Shown here in pieces: positions 14,401-53,650 of a stretch of DNA of 64,000 nt. Numbering within the stretch: the stretch's first letter is position 1; the number at the start of each line of letters is the position of its first letter. The notes under the pieces were generated by a model. It worked only from the letters and a program-made list of their open reading frames with translations, was not told where the DNA came from and made no database searches. The position numbers and the translations under genes were made by a program. Source of the DNA: Physcomitrium patens (lineage: Eukaryota > Streptophyta > Bryopsida > Funariales > Funariaceae); contig NC_037256.1 of assembly GCF_000002425.4 (NCBI RefSeq), positions 18,407,982-18,471,981 on the forward strand, given 5' to 3'.

Positions 14401-14581
14401 TTCATTCTCATAGACTATTATGTGAGGATAAATTCTCCCTTCAATTCAAATTACAAGATGGTTTAATTAAGAGTTGCTTGTTATTGGTGGTATGAAGTAG
14501 AAGATGCAATAAATAAGACAATTTTTTAAAAAAATAATAGTAAATAAGTGAAATAAAAGCAATCAAGTAATTGCATACAAC
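14393..14581 (-). repeat. Family C LTR, left part
   Basis: Homologous to the outer part of both arms of the inverted repeat at 44.9-47.7 kb (landmark CAAATTACAAGATGG). The LTR is split at 14581/20823 by the young gypsy element and continues to about 21.89 kb. Confidence 0.65.
14577..14581 (+). other. Left target-site duplication ACAAC
   Basis: ACAAC directly precedes the 5' LTR and is repeated exactly at 20818-20822 after the 3' LTR, a 5-bp duplication typical of Ty3/gypsy integration. Confidence 0.95.
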
Positions 14582-14620
14582 TGTTAGGGACATATTCCTT
14601 AGAAATTTCTAGAGAGAAGT

Positions 14621-14867
14621 TTCTAGAACCTTCTAGAAAACAAGCCTCTGGAACCTTCTAGAAGAGAAGCCTCTGGAACCTTTTAGAGAGAAGTTTCTAG
14701 AAGCTTCTAGAAAGAAAGTCTCTGGAACCTTCTAGAAGAGAAGTTTCTAGAAGCTTCTAGAAAGGAATCCCCTAGAACTTTCTAGAAGCTTCCTAGTTAA
14801 TAGAAGTAGCTCGAGAAGTTTCTAGAACCTTCTAGAAAGGAAGCCTCTGGAACCTTCTAGAAGCTTC
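14621..14867 (+). promoter_or_regulatory. Array of perfect heat-shock elements in U3
   Basis: Eight sites match the heat-shock factor consensus of alternating GAA and TTC at 5-bp spacing with three or four perfect units: 14621-14638, 14651-14663, 14695-14712, 14725-14737, 14745-14762, 14775-14792, 14820-14837 and 14850-14867. An example is TTCTAGAACCTTCTAGAA. They lie 40-290 bp upstream of the TATA box. In plants such arrays bind HSF trimers, as in the heat-activated copia element ONSEN. Heat response of this element is an inference from the sites. Confidence 0.8.
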
Positions 14868-14908
14868 CTAGTTAATAGAAGTAGCTCAAGAAGCTTCCTA
14901 AGTAGGAG

Positions 14909-14916
14909 TATATAAA
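14909..14916 (+). promoter_or_regulatory. LTR TATA box
   Basis: TATATAAA is followed about 30 bp later by the predicted transcription start at 14941, the standard plant spacing. Confidence 0.8.
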
Positions 14917-14940
14917 GGGATCGAGGCTGAAGAGTTCTTC

Positions 14941-14951
14941 AGTCTCGACAA
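14941..14951 (+). other. Predicted 5' end of R, self-primer sequence
   Basis: AGTCTCGACAA begins at the expected transcript start. It is the exact reverse complement of 15079-15089, just after the LTR. In Tf1/sushi elements the first 11 nt of the RNA anneal to the primer site and serve as the minus-strand primer. The same arrangement, with different bases, is kept at 53256-53266 and 53435-53445. Confidence 0.75.
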
Positions 14952-15078
14952 CACATCTCTTGGAGTTCTAGCTCACTTTTCTGGTGTTGTTCTTGTACTC
15001 ATCTATTTAATCTAGTTCTGCCACTTCTTCTTGAACTTCTTGTTAGATTTCAAGTCTGTATTTTGTGTCCCTGACAGT

Positions 15079-15089
15079 TTGTCGAGACT
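15079..15089 (+). other. Self-priming primer-binding site
   Basis: TTGTCGAGACT starts two bases after the 5' LTR and pairs perfectly over 11 bp with the predicted first 11 nt of the element's RNA (14941-14951). The pairing stops exactly at 11 bp on both sides, the length known for Tf1. No tRNA complement occupies this position. Confidence 0.75.
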
Positions 15090-15130
15090 ACACTAACTTG
15101 AGATATCAGAGCTAGTTCTTTCTTAGTAGA

Positions 15131-15320
15131 GTGTGGATTACCCCTCTACTTGAAGGTATACTAGCATTTTTTAGAGGTTGCGGATTACCCTCCTCTAAAC
15201 TGATACTTCTTCTGTTACAATATTGGAGTCTTATTCTTCTTGGAGAGAGTGGATTACCCCTCTTCTTGAAATTCTTAAGGCATTTTATAGGTTGTGGATT
15301 ACCCTCCTATAAACCAATAT
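15131..15320 (+). repeat. Leader repeats with GGATTACCC motif
   Basis: Four units alternate as type A (GTGGATTACCCCTCT, near 15133 and 15247) and type B (GGATTACCCTCCT, near 15183 and 15297), forming two tandem copies of about 114 bp before gag. The same A-B-A-B layout is still visible in decayed form at 24885-25045 and 53470-53640. Conservation in a noncoding leader suggests an RNA role such as packaging or translation; that part is inference. Confidence 0.7.
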
Positions 15321-15356
15321 TGTCTCTTTTAGGGTCATTTTTGTCCTTCTTTTAGA

Positions 15357-16320
15357 ATGGCCGGAGGTCAAGACATTAGTATGACAGAAAGTTTGGAGTC
15401 TAAGTTAGATGCTATTATGAATGCCCTCGCTACGTTATCACAAAGAACTGCAGAGATTGAAGGAGTAGTGGCAAGGCTTCATAATGATGAAGTATCTAGG
15501 ATAGCACAATCTAAACTACACCAGCCTCAAATTTCGGCACTTGGAGAAACAACTTTACCTCAGGTTCGACAAGAACCACTAGTTCTACAACATAAGGAGC
15601 CTCGAGTTAGCCTTCCAGATAAGTTTGATGGAATACATTCCAAGTTTCGAGGATTCGTCAATCAAATCAGATTGATAATAGTTTTACAGCTCGAACGATA
15701 TCCAACGGAGGAGTCACGTGTTGGGCTTGTTGGAACCTTACTTACGGGACAAGCTCTATCATGGTTTGCTTCTTTGTTTGAGAAACGATCATCCATATTA
15801 AACAACTTCGAAACCTTTTTGGAAGCATTTGCGGAAGCATTTGGTGAACACGATAAGGTTCGATGGGCTACAACAAAGATCCGGTCGCTACGACAAGGGA
15901 TGCATTCTACATCAGTCTATGCTTCAGATTTCAGGCAATTAGTATGCGACATCAATTGGGATGAAGAAGCGTTGATGAGTCAATTCTATTGGGGTTTAAG
16001 AGATGATGTGAAGGATTTGCTGTTAACTCTTCCTGATCCACGAACGCTCAATGAAGCCATTAGCCAAGCTCTGAAGTGCAATAATCGCCTATTCCAACGT
16101 CGCCAAGACCAACGCTCAAGACAACATACAATTCGACATGCTCCAACTATGTCGGCAAGCAATGTGAATTTGCATTCAGAGGTGGAAGACATGTAAATTG
16201 ATGCGGTACGTATCAAATCTCTTACTATAGAAGAAAAAAAACCACATATGGAAGAAAATTTATGCTTGTATTGCGGTGAAGAAGGCCACAAAGTCGAAAA
16301 CTGTCCCAAAAAGCAAAATC
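15357..16320 (+). mobile_element. Gag region of the young chromovirus
   Basis: Starts with MAGGQDISMTESLESKLDA. It carries the capsid-type core of chromovirus Gag (FDGIHSKFRGFVNQIRLII, LLTGQALSWFASLF, KIRSLRQGMHSTSVYASDF) and then a CCHC zinc knuckle (CLYCGEEGHKVENC, near 16264-16305). Part of a broken coding region; the family normally makes one Gag-Pol precursor. Confidence 0.9.
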
Positions 16321-16439
16321 GAGGCATAGTCAAGACTAGGGGAGTATTTGTTCAGGAAAACGAGGATGCCCAGCCACAGTAGGAACCGTGCGGCTGGACA
16401 ATGAAATATCCCAACAACAATCAGGTTCCTTTCTTTCTG

Positions 16440-16820
16440 CCCAACTTGCACTTTGTTTTACAATCCCTCTGTTTATCGGCCCTCAAAAACTGAGAACCTT
16501 AGCACTACTAGACTCAAGAGCATCTGCTTGTTTTTTAGACGAAGAATTTGCAAAGCGTCATAAGATCTCTTTAGTACAAAAATCAAAACCTGTTCATGTT
16601 GAGGTCATAGATGGGCGACCTTTATTGTCTGGTAGCATCACCCATGAATCAAAACCTATAGAAGTAACATTTAAAGACCATAGTAGTCATATTATTTTTA
16701 ATATTATTAGAACCCCATCAAATCCTATTATTCTTGGTCTTTCTTGGTTGGAAAAACATAATCCATTGATAGATTGGAGGTTGAAGGAAGATGACTTTTT
16801 CCACAAAACCACCTAAGAAA
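16440..16820 (+). mobile_element. Protease region of the young chromovirus
   Basis: Contains the aspartic-protease region (TLALLDSRASACFLDEEFA, near 16495-16550) and the downstream ILGLSWLEKHNPLIDW block that marks the protease C-terminus in chromoviruses. Confidence 0.85.
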
Positions 16821-16929: not shown

Positions 16930-17860
16930 TCGAGGAGAAGATCTCAACAGCAAGTATACTGGAGCAATATAAAGATTTTGAAGACGTGTTTCAAAAGAAG
17001 AACGCCGACATACTACCGGAACACCGACCATATGATTGTGCCATAGACTTGCAAGAAGGAGCACAACCACCTTTTAGCCCAATCTACAATCTATCGCAAA
17101 TGGAGTTGGCAGAGTTACGAAAGTACATCGACGAGAATCTAGCCAAGAACTTCATTCGTCATTCAAAATCATCAGCTGGAGCACCCATCTTATTTGTGAA
17201 GAAGAAAGATCATTACGGATGTGTGTGGACTATCGAGGCCTCAACAAGGTAACAAAGAAAAATCGTTACCCATTACCCTTGATTTCTAGTCTCTTAGAAC
17301 AACTTGGACGTGCAAAGATCTTTACAAAAATTGATCTAAGGGGAGTTTATAATCTCGTACGAATCAAGGAAGGAGATGAGTGGAAGACAACATTCCGTAT
17401 AAGGTATGGTCATTTCGAATATAATGTCATGCCTTTTGGTCTTACCAATGCTCCAGTGGTTTTCCAACATATGATGAATGACATCTTTGGAGAATACCTC
17501 GACGATTTTGTTGTCATCTACTTGGACAATATTCTAATATTCTCTAAAAACGAGGAAGAGCATGAGGAGCATGTTCGTTTGGTCTTGGAGAAACTACGCA
17601 AGCGAGGACTATATGCCAAATTAGAAAAGTGTTTCTTTCACCAGACGGAGATGGAATTTTTGGGATTCATTGCGACTACAGAAGGTTTGAAGATGGACCC
17701 CAAGAAAGTAGAAGCAATCATGTCTTGGGAGGTTCCGAAGACGGTTAGAGACATACAATGCTTTCTTGGTTTTGCTAACTTCTATCGGATCTTCATCAAG
17801 AATTATTCTCAAGTTGCTGCTCCTCTCACTCGATTAATATGCAAGGATAAGTTGGAATGG
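16930..17860 (+). mobile_element. Reverse transcriptase region of the young chromovirus
   Basis: RT blocks in order: LPEHRPYDCAIDLQ, VDYRGLNKVTKKNRYPLPLI, IFTKIDLRG, MPFGLTNAP, and the active-site block near 17500-17550 followed by FSKNEEEHEEHV. FLGFANFYRIFIKNYS marks the thumb region. These are diagnostic of Ty3/gypsy. Confidence 0.95.
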
Positions 17861-17869
17861 GGACCTTTG

Positions 17870-18300
17870 GCGGAGAAGGCGTTTCAAGATTTGAAGACAA
17901 CATTTACTACAGCTCCAATTTTGGTACATCCAGACTTTACAAAGGCCTTCTATTTAGAAACTGATGCTTCAGATTTTGCTTTGGGAGCTGTGCTTTCACA
18001 AATGAGTGAAGATAAGAAGCTCCATCTAGTTGCATTCTATTCTCGGAAGTTCTCTGCTGCTGAAATCAATTATGAGATCCATGATAAGGAACTTCTTGCT
18101 ATAGTGGATTCTTTCAAAGAATGGCGTCACTTTCTTGAAGGAGCTGCACATCCAGTAACCGTATATACGGATCACAAGAATTTGGAGTATTTCATGACGG
18201 CTTGAGTTTTAAATCGGCGTCAAGCTCGGTGGAATATGTCGCTATCTAGATTCGATTTTGTTATCACTTATCGATCTGGAAGGCAGCAAGGACTATCCGA
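17870..18300 (+). mobile_element. RNase H region of the young chromovirus
   Basis: Contains FYLETDASDFALGAVLSQ, YEIHDKELLAIVDSFKEWRH, VYTDHKNLEYF and DALSRR, the gypsy RNase H signature ending at the connection to integrase. Confidence 0.95.
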
Positions 18301-18399
18301 TGCTTTATCAAGGAGATTGTATCTTGCACCAAAGGTTGGAGAAGCAACGTTTGATCAACAATGTACAACGTTATTGAAGCCAGAGAGATTTCAACTTTG

Positions 18400-19640
18400 T
18401 GCTACTCTTGTATCATTTGATGCTGACTTCCTAAACCAGGTACGTGCTATGACCATTAAAGATTCAGTAGCCATTGATATCAAGCAACGTACCAATGACG
18501 ACAAGTTCAAGGTGGAGGAAGATCTTTTATACTTTGAAGAGCGATTGTACATTCCAAAAGGACTAGCACGACTCCGAGTTCTTCAATCTCGCCATGATTT
18601 TCCAGCTGCGGGATATTTTGGATTCAATAAGACCTTGGAGCTTATTTCCCGAGATTTTTGGTGGCCCCAAATGTGGAAGGATGTGAAAGATTTTGTCCTC
18701 TCTTGTGACATCTGTTCAAGATTTAAGAATCCTCGGCATCGCCCTTATGGACTTCTACAGCCATTGCCAATTCCACATCGACCATGGTCTTCAATTTCTA
18801 TGGACTTCATCACGGACTTGCCATCATCAAACTCATTTCACAGCATCTTTGTCGTGATAGATCGGCTTACGAAGATGGCACACTTTGTTCCTTGTAAGAA
18901 GACATCGTCCAGTGAAGTCACAGCAAGACTCTTTCTCGATAATGTGTATCGATATCATGGACTACCAGATGATATCATATCAGATCGAGGTACCCAATTC
19001 GTGTTAAAGTTTTGGAGATCTCTCTTTGGGATATTGAAGGTAGATATCAAGCTTTCTTCAGCTTTTCATCCTCAAACTGATGGCCAAACGGAACGGGTGA
19101 ACCAAGTCTTGGAGCAATACTTACGATGCAGCATCAACTATCAACAAGACGATTGGACTGCATATCTACCGCTAGCCGAGTTTGCATATAACAACACCCT
19201 CCATGCGTCAACTCAACAAACACCATTCTTTTCCAACTATGGGTATCATCCGAAGCTTGATTTATTCAGTCCGTCAACAAATAACAATCCAGCAGCTGAA
19301 GGATTTGCGAAGCAACTATCAGAGCTTCAAACTATGTTGAAGCTTCAATTACAATCCGCTAAAGAATCCTATAAGACATCTGCAGATAGATTTCGGAATC
19401 CAGCACCTACTTTCAAAGTTGGAGACAAAGTCTGGCTTCTTCGACGAAATATCAAGACCAAGCGACCATGTGATAAGTTGGACTATCGAAAATTGGGACC
19501 ATTTATCATCCAGAAGCAAATTAATCCAGTGGCATACCGGCTGGAGTTACCGGCTTCTATGAAGGTACATCCAGTCTTTCATGTTTCTCTGTTGGAACCT
19601 TATCGAGAGTCATCTTTTCCTGAAAAAGTGCAATGTCTGC
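18400..19640 (+). mobile_element. Integrase region of the young chromovirus
   Basis: The zinc-binding domain has an H...H...C..C pattern ending SCDICSRFK. The DDE core reads SMDFITDLP, ISDRGTQF and TDGQTERVNQVLEQYLR. A GPY/F-like module (LDYRKLGPFIIQKQINP) and MKVHPVFHVSLLEPY follow. Confidence 0.95.
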
Positions 19641-19659
19641 CACCTAGTATTGAAATCGA

Positions 19660-19855
19660 GAACCACGAAGAATACGAGGTTGAAAAGGTATTGGATTCAC
19701 GGCGAAGGTGGGGAAAGTTAGAATATCTTGTTCATTAGTGCGGCTATGACATTAATGAGCGAACGTGGGAGCCAGCTGAAAATCGTGCAAATGCGCCACA
19801 AAAAGTACAGGAGTTTCATCAACGACATCCCGATAAACCTAAATCAATTCGATGA
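19660..19855 (+). mobile_element. Chromodomain at the integrase C-terminus
   Basis: EYEVEKVLDSRRRWGKLEYL, CGYDINERTWEPAENRANAP and VQEFHQRHPDKPKSI form a typical chromovirus chromodomain that targets integration to marked chromatin. Confidence 0.9.
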
Positions 19856-20372: not shown

Positions 20373-20817
20373 TGTTAGGGACATATTCCTTAGAACTTTC
20401 TAGAGAGAAGTTTCTAGAACCTTCTAGAAAACAAGCCTCTGGAACCTTCTAGAAGAGAAGCCTCTGGAACCTTTTAGAGAGAAGTTTCTAGAAGCTTCTA
20501 GAAAGGAATCCCCTAGAACTTTCTAGAAGCTTCCTAGTTAATAGAAGTAGCTCGAGAAGTTTCTAGAACCTTCTAGAAAGGAAGCCTCTGGAACCTTCTA
20601 GAAGCTTCCTAATTAATAGAAGTAGCTCGAGAAGCTTCCTAAATAGGAGTATACATAGGGATCGAGGCTGAAGAGTTCTTCAGTCTCGACAACACATCTC
20701 TTGGAGTTCTAGCTCACCTTTCTGGTGTTGTTCTTGTACTCATCTATTTAATCTAGTTCTGCCATTTCTTCTTGAACTTCTTGTTAGATTTCAAGTCTGT
20801 ATTTTGTGTCCGTGACA
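20373..20817 (+). repeat. 3' LTR of the young chromovirus
   Basis: 445 bp, TG...CA, about 98% identical to the 5' LTR apart from one missing block of about 50 bp in the repetitive U3. The heat-shock-element array (from 20412) and the 11-nt R start are both retained. Confidence 0.95.
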
Positions 20818-20822
20818 ACAAC
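20818..20822 (+). other. Right target-site duplication ACAAC
   Basis: Exact match to 14577-14581. Confidence 0.95.
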
Positions 20823-24310: not shown

Positions 24311-24838
24311 TGTCACAAATATACATATTAATTCTAATATTTATTTATATGATTAAGTAGAAGTAGGTAAAATAGATCTATTTCATTGCATTTTTTAGAA
24401 AAGCTTTTTAGAAGCTCTATTGACATTGCTTTGATTTTATATGCATTAGTAGTTGATTGATAGATTAGAAATTTGATCAAGAAATTAACCATATCTTAAT
24501 AACTTACAAAACAAGTTAATTATGTGGCATATATATAAGAAACTTACCTTACAAGTTAAGATATGTATCTTGCAAAGTCAACATGTTTAGGAGGCCCTAC
24601 AGAACATTACTATATAGTTCTTAATTAAATAGTATATATGGAAACAAGAATGAAGCCTTCTTCATTCTTGTCAATGCCTTTTGAGTTCCTAGTCTTATTT
24701 CATGACTATCTAGACTTCTTGTCTTTGGAAATAGCCATTTTAGTTTAATATATTATCGTCTTTGTATGTTTTTTAGTCTTTTTAAGTGATACAAAAGTAT
24801 ATTGAGGATTTCTTTCTTTGAGATTCATATCTTTCATA
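24311..24838 (+). repeat. Family E 5' LTR
   Basis: Begins TGTCACAAATATACATATT. A TATATATGG box (24633-24641) lies about 30 bp before ATTCTTGTCAA (24664-24674), which matches the R-start position of the self-primed relatives. Homologues lie at 29655, 41711, 42460, 50170, 51050 and 53010. Confidence 0.8.
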
Positions 24839-41710: not shown

Positions 41711-42146
41711 TGTCACAAATATACATATTTATTTAAATAAATATATAGATTATTTAGATAATATATATAGATATAAATAGATTAAAATAAATAAATTTGA
41801 TAATATCTTGTAGAGAAGTTTTTCAAAAGCTTTATAGATGTAATTTTATCTTTATACATGTCTAAAAGTGATTGATAGATTAGAAACTTAACTAACAAGT
41901 TAGTCACATATTGCACATATTTGTGGCTTGTGATACAAGTTAACTATATGACATATATATAAGAAACTTCTCTTATAAGTTAGACATGTATCATGCAAGT
42001 TGGACATTTTTTAGAAATCCTATAAAGCATTGTCACATAGCTTCTAGTTAAATAATATACATGAAAGCAAGAATAAAGCTTTTTTCAATCTTGTCAATTG
42101 ATTTCTAATTTTCTTGTCTATTGACAATAGCTATTCTAGTTTCTTC

Positions 42147-42202
<56 letters not shown>

Positions 42203-42440
42203 CTATTTGGTCATCTTTTTTTGAAAAATATTTTATTTATTTATTTATATTTATCAAGTTCTTATCAATGAATTGATAAGAATATACTTATCATTTCAAA
42301 GCTTTGTCTTTTCTTGATTAAGAGTAGATAATTTCTTTCTCTTGATAAGATATAAGTATATTAGAAGTTGTAGATTACTCTCTTCTAAATTGATTTTTTT
42401 TTAGAATTTCTTTTTTTGTTTTCAAGTTCTCTCTTTTACT
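41711..42440 (+). mobile_element. Family E LTR plus leader fragment
   Basis: Starts TGTCACAAATATACAT. The LTR runs to about 42270 and includes a long TA microsatellite (about 42148-42200). A decayed priming site (TTGATAAGAAT, 42273-42283) and a leader with a GTAGATTACTCTCTTCTAAA-type repeat follow. No gag is attached, because another family E LTR fragment follows at 42460. Confidence 0.7.
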
Positions 42441-50217: not shown

Positions 50218-51049
50218 ATTATTATTACTTAGATAATATAAATAGGTAGAAGTAAGTAAAAATAGATTAATTTTATAATATCTTTTAAAAAAGCTTCTTA
50301 GAAGCTTTGTAGACTCTATTTTTATTTTACATGTGTTTGTAGTTGATTGATAGATTATAAACTTTATCAATAAGCTAATCATAAGCCACATGTATTAGTA
50401 GCTTGTGGAATAAGTTAATAATGTGGCGCCCATATGAAAAACTTGCCTTGTAAGTCAAGATATCTATCATATAAAGTCAACACATTTTTTGAGGTCTTAT
50501 AGAATGTCTCCACATAGATTATAAATAGATAATATATATAGAGGCAAGAATGAAGCCTTCTTCACTCTTGTCAATTCCTTTCTTGCTTTTAGTTTAGATT
50601 CAAGAGTTTCTAGTTTTCTTATCTTTTGGCAATAGCCATTATAATATTTTTTAATATACATATTTTTATTTTTTATTTTATCACTTTTTTTTTGATATGG
50701 ATTTCATAAGTTTATGCATCTTTTTTTAGTACATGTTCTTTATAGATTGATAATAATATATTTATAATATTAGTGCTTTATCTTCTTTTGATCAAAAATA
50801 AATTATTCATTTTTTTTATAATACATAAGCATATTAGAAGTTACAGATTACCCTCTTCTAAATTAATATTATTCTTAATATTTTCTTTGTAATTAAGTCA
50901 TTTTTTTTTTTTTTTTTATCTTGAGTGATATTAGATATTTTTTTAAGTATTAATATGGCAAAGCTTCTTGAAATAAAGAGTACAATGGCATAAATACAAG
51001 AATAATTAAGAAAATTGATGCTTGCGATGCATCAACTCAATTTATTGCC
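50170..51049 (+). mobile_element. Family E LTR, leader and gag start
   Basis: LTR from TGTCACAAATATATAT (50170, TA-expanded) to about 50755, with ACTCTTGTCAA (50564-50574) at the expected R start. A decayed priming site (50757-50767), a leader with an ACAGATTACCCTCTTCTAAA-type repeat near 50840, and the start of gag (MAKLLEIKSTMA, from 50954) follow. It is cut by a further LTR fragment at 51050. Confidence 0.7.
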
Positions 51050-51249: not shown

Positions 51250-51960
51250 TTTTAATTCTAATAGAATATTAAAAAAAATCTAATTAAACTTTAACAATAG
51301 TAAACAAAATTTAATTAAATTCAAAAGAAACTTTAAAGAAATTATAAAAGAAACAATAAGAAATCTTAAAGAAGTTGAAAGAAAATTCACAAGAAACCTT
51401 AAAAGAATCCTTAAGAAGCCCTAAAAAAAATTAAAACAATCACAAAAATATCTTAAATAAATTTCAATCAAGTTCTAAATTAACCTTTGTTGAAATTTTA
51501 ATGGACTTCAATCAAACTTTAGAAAAGTCCTAAATCTTAAACCAAACTTCAAATCAAATCTTGGATCCTAAACCAAATCTTAAATCAAATCTTAAATAAA
51601 CTCTAAATCTTAAACCAAATCTTAAATCAAATCCTAAATCCTAAATCAAATCATAGATAAATCCTAAACTTTAAACCAAATCCTAGATTAAATCCTAGAT
51701 CCTAAATTAAATCCTAAATTAAATCCTAGATAAATTAAAAATCCTAGACCAAATCTTGAATTGAACCGTAGACAAATCTTAAATCTTAAATCAAATTTTA
51801 GATCAAGTTTTAGATCCTAAATCAAATCCTAAATAAATCCTAAATTTTAAACCAAATCCTAAATTAAATCCTAAAAAAATCCTAAAATCTAAATCAAACC
51901 TTAGATCAAATCTTAGATCCTAAACCAAATTCTAATCCTATTCAATCTAATCCTAGTGTG
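51250..51960. repeat. Degenerate minisatellite of AAATC(C/T)TAAA units
   Basis: About 700 bp of irregular units such as AAATCCTAAATCAAATC and AAACCAAATCTTAAATC, with a period of roughly 12-15 bases and frequent variants. It resembles but is not the plant telomere repeat (CCCTAAA). Confidence 0.75.
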
Positions 51961-53009
51961 ATTTAGAACCTTAATATCTATTAATTGATCTATTGATCTT
52001 GCTTAAAAATTTAAATATCTTTCAACAACTAAATTGACAAAAAGCATACAAAATTTGAAAATAATTGCATTTAACAAATGGAAGAATAATCTTAAATTTT
52101 TCTTGGGTATTGACTAGCTTCCTACTCCAATCTAAATATTGAACTTCTAGTACTAATATCTTCTTATTAAACTATTCAAATGTTCTCAAATTTCACATGT
52201 ATATATAAAATCAAGTCTTTTACTTTTAAATATAAAATTTATCCTAATCCAACTAGTAGATTGTTGAAAAACTTAAAAATCCTAATAGCCTCTCAAAGTC
52301 CAATTTTTGAGGCCTCAACCTACTTAAAATTCAATAGCCTTTAATTCAACCAATTGATCAAGCTCAAAATTATAACATACACTTCAAACAACTACTTTTA
52401 TAAGTCATAAAAATTTTAATTATAGATCTACTATCAAACTCACAAAATTCTCTAAAACGTAATATTTTTTTTTATTTCACATATTTTAGAGTCACCTAAA
52501 AAAATTGTAACTTTGCAAAGCTCTTTTAAAGTCATTATACACTCAATTCCCTCAAAATCAATGATTAAAAAAATTCTATCAAGTTTTTTTTTTTAAATTC
52601 CACTCTTTGATCTATAAAAAAATCTTTTGAATTATTGTAGGTGCTCAGTTATGTACCTCAGGGTCTGATTTTGACGTAGGTTGATAACTAGTCCTCTTTG
52701 GATATCAAATTTTTCCCTTTAGAGTTAATTTTTATTCCAATAAATTCTTAACTTCTTCTTACATATATTCATATTCTTTATTATTCTAATCTACCTTGTT
52801 TTTCTTTATTTATGGCCTTACAAAGTAAGTAGAAGTCTACTTTGTAAAAAGGTAGCATTTAAACCTTTGGTTCTACTTTCTTTTGGACTATTGTTTATTT
52901 TTAAATATAATTTGCTATAATATTTGAAGTAAGATCTTCTATATTATAATAGATTCTTCACTCCTTTCACATATTAGTCATGTTATATCATGACAACATG
53001 GTTATGACC
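51961..53009. other. AT-rich stretch, no gene seen
   Basis: No coding signal. A slightly richer patch near 52645-52710 could not be assigned. Confidence 0.4.
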
Positions 53010-53255
53010 TTAGATATATTTATAAGTTAGAAATTTGGCCAATAAATTAACCACATGTTGGTAGCTTGTAGAACAAATTAACTCTGTATACTAGCTTGTA
53101 GAATAAGCTAATTATGTGGTATATATATAGATAACTTGTCTTGTAAGTTAAGATATGTGGCTAGCAAAGTCAACACATGTTGGAGGTCGTATAGAATATC
53201 GTCACGTAGCTCCTAGTTAAAGAGTATATACGGAGGCAAGAATGAAGCCTTCTTC

Positions 53256-53266
53256 ACTCTTGTCAA
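53256..53266 (+). other. Predicted R start of family E element
   Basis: ACTCTTGTCAA lies about 30 bp after the TATATA box at 53225-53230. It is the exact reverse complement of 53435-53445. Confidence 0.7.
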
Positions 53267-53434: not shown

Positions 53435-53445
53435 TTGACAAGAGT
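53435..53445 (+). other. Self-priming site of family E element
   Basis: TTGACAAGAGT lies two bases after the LTR end and pairs over 11 (extendable to 12) bases with 53256-53266. The base identities differ from the young element at several positions on both sides, yet pairing is preserved. Confidence 0.7.
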
Positions 53446-53650
53446 GCTAATTTATAATTTTTATCTTATTTTAGAAGTGAATGGATTATCCCACTTCTAT
53501 TATTTTATTTTAAAGGTGGAAGACTATCTATCTTTAAAGAAATAATCTTATTTTCTAACATTGATTTTTCTTTAAAATACAGTGGATTATTCTTCCTCAT
53601 GGAAATTTATATTTGACATTAGAGGTTCCGAATTACTCTCTTGTAATTAT

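Follow-up and report, generated by a model that had tools for sequence, protein, structure and literature searches.

A predicted self-priming, Tf1/sushi-type LTR retrotransposon of the Tcn1 clade in the moss Physcomitrium patens

The window, the whole 64-kb stretch of Physcomitrium patens DNA analysed here, contains a young LTR retrotransposon of a family that we call A. All features are given on the forward strand. The 5' LTR (TGTTAGGGAC...GTCCCTGACA) was located at 14582-15076 by reading and LTR alignment and the 3' LTR at 20373-20817 by alignment. The 5-bp target duplication ACAAC is present on either flank (14577-14581 and 20818-20822), and the element is complete in outline. The two LTRs are equal at 436 of 445 aligned bases, with 50 gap columns in addition. 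When the frame pieces were searched separately for domains, the matches followed the Ty3 order of gag, protease, reverse transcriptase, RNase H and integrase. They comprise a gag-like open frame (Retrotrans_gag, 15333-16196), an aspartyl protease piece (16340-16816), a reverse transcriptase and RNase H piece (17078-18205, also found by searching for relatives), an integrase piece with zinc-binding, core and Tf2-1-like SH3 parts (18206-19738) and a chromodomain (19673-19825). The Chromo match (E 1.5e-13) lies at the end of the integrase in a 67-residue stretch, where the in-frame stop of this copy was read as X. Among the best 120 of 7143 reverse transcriptase relatives, those with an organism name were one fungal (Absidia) and four amphibian proteins; relatives were also sought in viral contigs, where none was confirmed. 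These domains, together with the chromodomain, fit a Ty3-type LTR retrotransposon of the Tcn1 clade (Tf1/sushi chromoviruses), and no feature excluding this clade was found in the elements. The U3 of family A (14610-14880, 20400-20620) is crowded with TTCTAGAAGCTTCTAGAA-like words, which we take to be heat-shock element arrays (motif TTCnnGAA). An Rfam scan of 14800-15300 returned only SAM-II, below threshold (E 0.041), and this was taken as chance. Elsewhere in the window, dense tandem repeats occupy 51492-51976, where 18 matches overlap at steps of 11 to 42 nt.

The 5' LTR carries, by reading, the TATA box TATATAAA at 14909-14916 (TATAAA at 14911), and 30-32 nt further a CA step marks the predicted start of transcription. 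The first 11 nt of the predicted RNA, AGTCTCGACAA (14941-14951), are the perfect complement of TTGTCGAGACT (15079-15089). This duplex is exactly 11 bp long and cannot be extended on either side. The LTR ends with CCTGACA at 15076, followed by GT and then by the complementary word, which therefore lies 2 nt past the LTR. Sequence reading, an inverted-pair scan and genome counts point to these two words as a self-primer and its binding site. A second pair was found in an old copy of another family, E, by reading and by the scan. Here, the predicted self-primer ACTCTTGTCAA (53256-53266) pairs perfectly with the putative site TTGACAAGAGT (53435-53445), GT again separates the LTR end from the site, and a TATA box (TATATA, 53225-53230, by reading) lies about 30-32 nt 5' of the predicted start. 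A C precedes the first base in both families, as is usual for plant transcription starts, and in family E an extra C-G pair is possible just before the start. Both pairs had been claimed in an earlier note on this DNA, the second with bases changed on both sides. They are present exactly as it described, and the three positions changed in family E are compensated. The weak relics it listed at 42273 and 50757 are indeed weak: the decayed site TTGATAAGAAT (42273-42283) has 2 mismatches against its start at 42087, and TTGATAATAAT has 3 against its start at 50564 and occupies 50747-50757, so that 50757 is its last base. A further copy in the window, with its start at 24664, has lost the site.

The scan of each strand of the window for perfect 11-nt inverted pairs, with arms 60-250 nt apart, overlaps counted and at least 3 G/C in the pairs shown, gave 48 of them, and just the two sites described above have a TATA word 18-45 nt upstream. 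When the sequences were dinucleotide-shuffled, a perfect pair was obtained in 0 of 40000 shuffles for each of families A and E, even when the start could shift by ±5 nt and the site could lie 0-5 nt past the LTR. The primer is paired with the site in the minimum-energy fold of the leader in both families. The whole leader of family A is no more stable than its shuffles (z -0.51) and that of family E has a z of -4.24. As a separate observation, the leader past the site (15120-15300; 53470-53600) contains several repeats of a GTGGATTACCCCTC-like motif, which are looser in family E and vary in spacing among subfamilies.

The search was then extended to the genome (101 contigs, 470 Mb), in which 3648+3629 places have TTGTCGAGACT or its complement, compared to 38+47 for the reversed word. 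The perfect pair was found at 1638 loci for family A (gap 112-142) and at 3605 loci for the E-type (gap 150-180), with reversed controls of 0 in both cases. Since each pattern is its own complement, both strands report identical loci. Twenty 10-kb stretches picked by position alone contained E-type LTR matches in 13 cases, and one perfect E-type pair (L016) as well as one perfect A-type pair (L019). With stretch L009, which unlike these was chosen for its sites, the 21 stretches (206 kb) gave eight pairs that pass a filter for TATA and complexity; apart from the two just named, these are two overlapping matches of one pair in L009 and four pairs in other sequence. The element family is very abundant in the moss genome, with thousands of copies.

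To follow start and site across copies, 5' LTRs were sampled independently of the pair, with a leader word that overlaps neither 11-mer. Among the 100 anchor places listed of 3663, 4 were second anchors of copies already counted, leaving 96 copies, all of them on one contig (C1) among the matches listed. From these, 94 were read, with two later-fetched copies outside the count; one copy without a readable start (L084) and one typed as family E were left out, and 92 were scored. A perfect pair was present in 55 of the 92 (34 of 61 in family A and 21 of 31 in E2), and 78 had at most one mismatch (51 and 27, respectively). An alignment was made of 82 copies (78 distinct), consisting of 73 of the first 74 of the sample and 9 hand-chosen from 31 because they reach the site. 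Start and site pair in 95.2% of its cells, and in 32-43% after sliding by 1-3 columns. Among the 78 distinct copies, positions 2, 6 and 8, which are those that differ between family A and E/E2, show two-sided changes in 26, 27 and 31 cases and are unpaired in 9, 10 and 0. The two shuffle measures least sensitive to kinship are weak, with 68 of 500 shuffles as high for pairs changed on both sides and 18 of 500 for further pair types. Compensatory change in other copies, which the earlier note had proposed as a check, is found between the families. The covariation is strong for pairing, yet it reflects mainly one deep split, that of family A versus E/E2.

Within family A, 10 starts and 11 sites are changed at positions 2 and 6, but never at the same position in one copy. 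Of the 17 changes in the start, 11 affect the CG step (positions 6 and 7), as do 16 of the 28 site changes. The within-family mismatches, mostly one-sided, look like decay after insertion. Position 7 is changed on both sides in four copies, all matched, where about one is expected under independence. Covariation within the family was nevertheless set aside, since age differences between copies may account for position 7 and positions 2 and 6 show none. In one family A copy (L080, 87-279), about 18 extra nucleotides that repeat the LTR end are found ahead of the site.

A chance complementarity that was simply inherited by many copies has to be considered here. The copies of a family are related, and hence the 5243 loci are not 5243 tests. 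Kinship does not account, however, for the absence of a perfect pair from the shuffles in each of two families, nor for the compensation of the three positions that differ between them, and we give this explanation next to no credence.

The start of R also has a putative partner on its other side. The stretch between the TATA box and the start complements the last 4 nt of U3 together with the first 8-9 nt of R, which predicts a U3-R hairpin spanning the start, so that one 11-mer has two possible partners. In family A, where alignment, folding and shuffles support it, the U3 arm at 14921-14932 pairs with 14937-14948 (the last 4 nt of U3 and R1-R8). The hairpin has 12 bp and -18.9 kcal/mol in both LTRs of the window copy. 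E2 (L016) has 13 bp and -19.7 kcal/mol. A weaker hairpin (-13.5 kcal/mol) is predicted for the old copy of family E, where the U3 arm at 53235-53247 pairs with 53252-53264 with one internal mismatch. These energies were reached by 0 of 500 dinucleotide shuffles for each LTR of family A, 0 for E2 and 2 for E, the arm of family E resting on this comparison. In L142, a diverged copy of family A, the hairpin tip differs, yet 13 bp are retained (-22.7 kcal/mol). Across the 82 aligned copies 92.3% of the hairpin cells pair, against 37-47% when slid, and R positions 2, 6 and 8 co-change with the U3 arm too. For hairpin pairs changed on both sides and for further pair types, the numbers do not exceed those of shuffles (257 and 288 of 500). 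At one hairpin position a G-U pair stands in 47 of the 78 distinct copies and A-U in 30, which favours a role in RNA over one in DNA. With U3 lying before the predicted start, the 5' end of the RNA lacks one arm of the hairpin, which can be formed in the 3' LTR instead. In that position, it would keep the second primer copy away from the site, while R12 and the nucleotides after it would stay available for strand transfer. No mention of this hairpin was found in the accessible parts of the open-licence literature searched.

With such a hairpin of 12-13 bp in families A and E2, though a weaker one in E, it might be argued that the start lies in an inverted repeat that serves the promoter or RNA folding alone and that the downstream copy is a by-product. 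This would leave unexplained why the second partner stands 2 nt past the LTR in both families and why the site tracks the start where the families differ. The family A duplex, moreover, ends at exactly 11 nt. We regard a pure promoter or folding function as very improbable.

The involvement of a tRNA primer was analysed with the initiator tRNA of the genome. At the self-site at 15079, it matches at 4 of 14 positions, and by reading no TGG occurs in 15070-15112. Priming by tRNA-iMet at the self-site was rejected on the number of matches. The comparison with tRNA 3' ends that the earlier note had suggested was thus made for the initiator tRNA, and it favours the self-site. A tRNA-iMet-like match of 11 of 14 positions was, however, found from 15101. 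Within it, TATCAGAGC (15104-15112) is complementary to the 3' end of tRNA-iMet minus CCA, as word counts in the sample and the tRNA comparison indicate. The tRNA-iMet genes of the genome predict the site TGGTATCAGAGCG; tRNA-iMet-like gene ends fitting the word occur at 12 places, and all three of the genes fetched were tRNA-Met genes by ARAGORN. Most copies of the sample contain TATCAGAGC: 52 of 62 in family A, at 13-14 nt past the self-site, and 22 of 31 in E2, at 10 nt. It was sought in three E-type copies (in the window from 53446 onward, L137 and L139) and was absent there. The full 12-nt word TGGTATCAGAGC was observed in 7 of the 62 family A and 0 of the 31 E2 copies; among seven sampled copies that contain it, six have perfect start-site pairs and one has three mismatches. 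Genome-wide, the full word stands beside a perfect self-site at 298 loci (153+145; control 0), a count that demands the perfect self-site and leaves copies with a broken site uncounted; the pattern allowed a spacing of 8-16 nt, and the spacing was 10 nt among the matches listed. Nine given letters are expected by chance within 40 positions about once in 6500 cases, or more often if other tRNAs count.

TGGTATCAGAGC starts 23 nt past the LTR. DNA whose synthesis began at this point would carry 23 extra nt, too many for a normal integration end, and for this reason we do not take the word as the working primer site. It may be a relic, a helper site or chance. The opposite assignment, with TGGTATCAGAGC further downstream as the place where tRNA-iMet primes and the 11-bp pair reduced to an RNA stem for packaging or circularisation, could draw on the frequency of TATCAGAGC near the self-site in both families, on the 298 loci and on the fitting tRNA-Met gene ends. 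It would demand a long tail on the DNA end, the TGG needed to pair with CCA is missing in most copies, that of the window included, and three E-type copies do without the word. This assignment is in our judgement very improbable. Plant LTR elements primed by tRNA-iMet usually have the primer site close to the LTR edge, whereas the word described here is distant from it and usually incomplete. The young family A element also differs from tRNA-primed plant chromoviruses in having no site starting with TGG 0-5 nt past the LTR. TGGTATCAGAGC itself is shared with tRNA-iMet-primed plant elements, where it is the published tRNA-Met site according to the part of the source available (PMC3852365). The accessible parts of the open-licence literature searched gave no mention of such a word beside a self-site.

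Self-priming has been proposed for related elements. In the available portions of the sources, Tf1 of fission yeast is described with its first 11 RNA nucleotides complementary to a site just past the LTR, as here, and with an RNase H cut between nucleotides 11 and 12 (PMC7175516). 'Pretzel' side duplexes flank the primer duplex in Tf1 (PMC10085805); they were not clearly found in the moss elements, where the search gave nothing longer than stems of 5-10 bp, and these differed between the families. Cryptococcus Tcn1 and the vertebrate sushi elements, for which self-priming has likewise been proposed (PMC7175516, PMC10085805), live in other hosts and are likened to the moss elements by description and by reverse transcriptase relatives. 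For plants, Neumann 2019 reports, in the text available, no tRNA sites for most Tcn1-clade elements of mosses and club-mosses and predicts that these self-prime in the manner of Tf1/sushi, the criterion being a complementarity to the 5' LTR of at least 10 bp that starts 0-5 bp after the LTR (PMC6317226). The Tcn1 clade of REXdb, including RLG1 and PpatensLTR2 of P. patens, resembles our elements in its chromodomain integrase and predicted self-priming (PMC6317226). RLG1 is also described as abundant and carrying a chromodomain, and as repressed under heat shock (PMC7466625, in part); judged by abundance, family A or E2 may be RLG1. Neither self-priming nor tRNA priming was found for SM-Tcn1 of Selaginella, as far as the accessible part of Novikova 2010 goes (PMC2864245). 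The earlier note had inferred a self-priming plant lineage. The pair, the compensation between the families and the mismatch to the initiator tRNA bear it out, but as far as the source goes such a plant chromovirus is already predicted in print (PMC6317226), and the inference, though right, is not new. What our analysis adds is the position of the start, the counts across the genome and the compensation between the families.

Taken together, Tf1/sushi-type self-priming is very probably the best explanation of the 11-bp pair, as far as sequence can tell. Transcription would start at R1, as suggested by the TATA box, the CA step and the edge of the duplex. The first 11 nt of the RNA could fold back by complementarity onto the site 2 nt past the 5' LTR. 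As in Tf1, RNase H would cut after nucleotide 11 and the fragment would prime minus-strand DNA synthesis. The end of the new DNA would then lie 2 nt past the LTR's CA, in keeping with the requirement of integrase. Plus-strand synthesis would copy the primer, and the site of a new copy should match the start of its parent; with the primer copied into each new site, start and site would stay matched as the families diverge.

A few mismatched copies can be read under self-priming as well. L031 (87-261) and L072 (86-254), of family A but of different subfamilies, have in common an unchanged site and the start ACTCTCGACAA, in which position 2 carries C instead of G, like that of family E. In the young E2 copy L014 (871-1091), the site TTGACAAGACT faces the start ACTCTTGTCAA in both LTRs, with a C-C mismatch at position 2; its LTRs are alike at 477 of 484 positions in the stretch compared. 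As a new site would be copied from the primer, that is, from the parent 5' LTR, and the start of a new LTR would come from the parent 3' LTR, these three copies could be one cycle behind.

More tentatively, the two additional features may be combined with self-priming. The post-LTR site and the U3 arm would be rival partners for the start of R, the primer copy of the 3' LTR being locked in the hairpin so that only the 5' copy primes, and a tRNA-iMet site, complete in about 300 loci, would have been kept beside the self-site, either left over from a change from tRNA priming to self-priming or still in use as a second site. We offer this combination as a speculation that is rather unlikely to hold in full.

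Self-priming in a plant lineage supports the published idea that the moss Tcn1 elements belong with the Tf1/sushi elements of fungi and vertebrates. With thousands of copies, the P. patens genome is a rich system for studying how the match between primer and site is maintained. A hairpin that does conceal the second primer copy would explain how the two copies of R are distinguished in a self-primed element, and a tRNA-iMet word that proved to be a relic would mean that the states before and after a primer change are preserved in one element.
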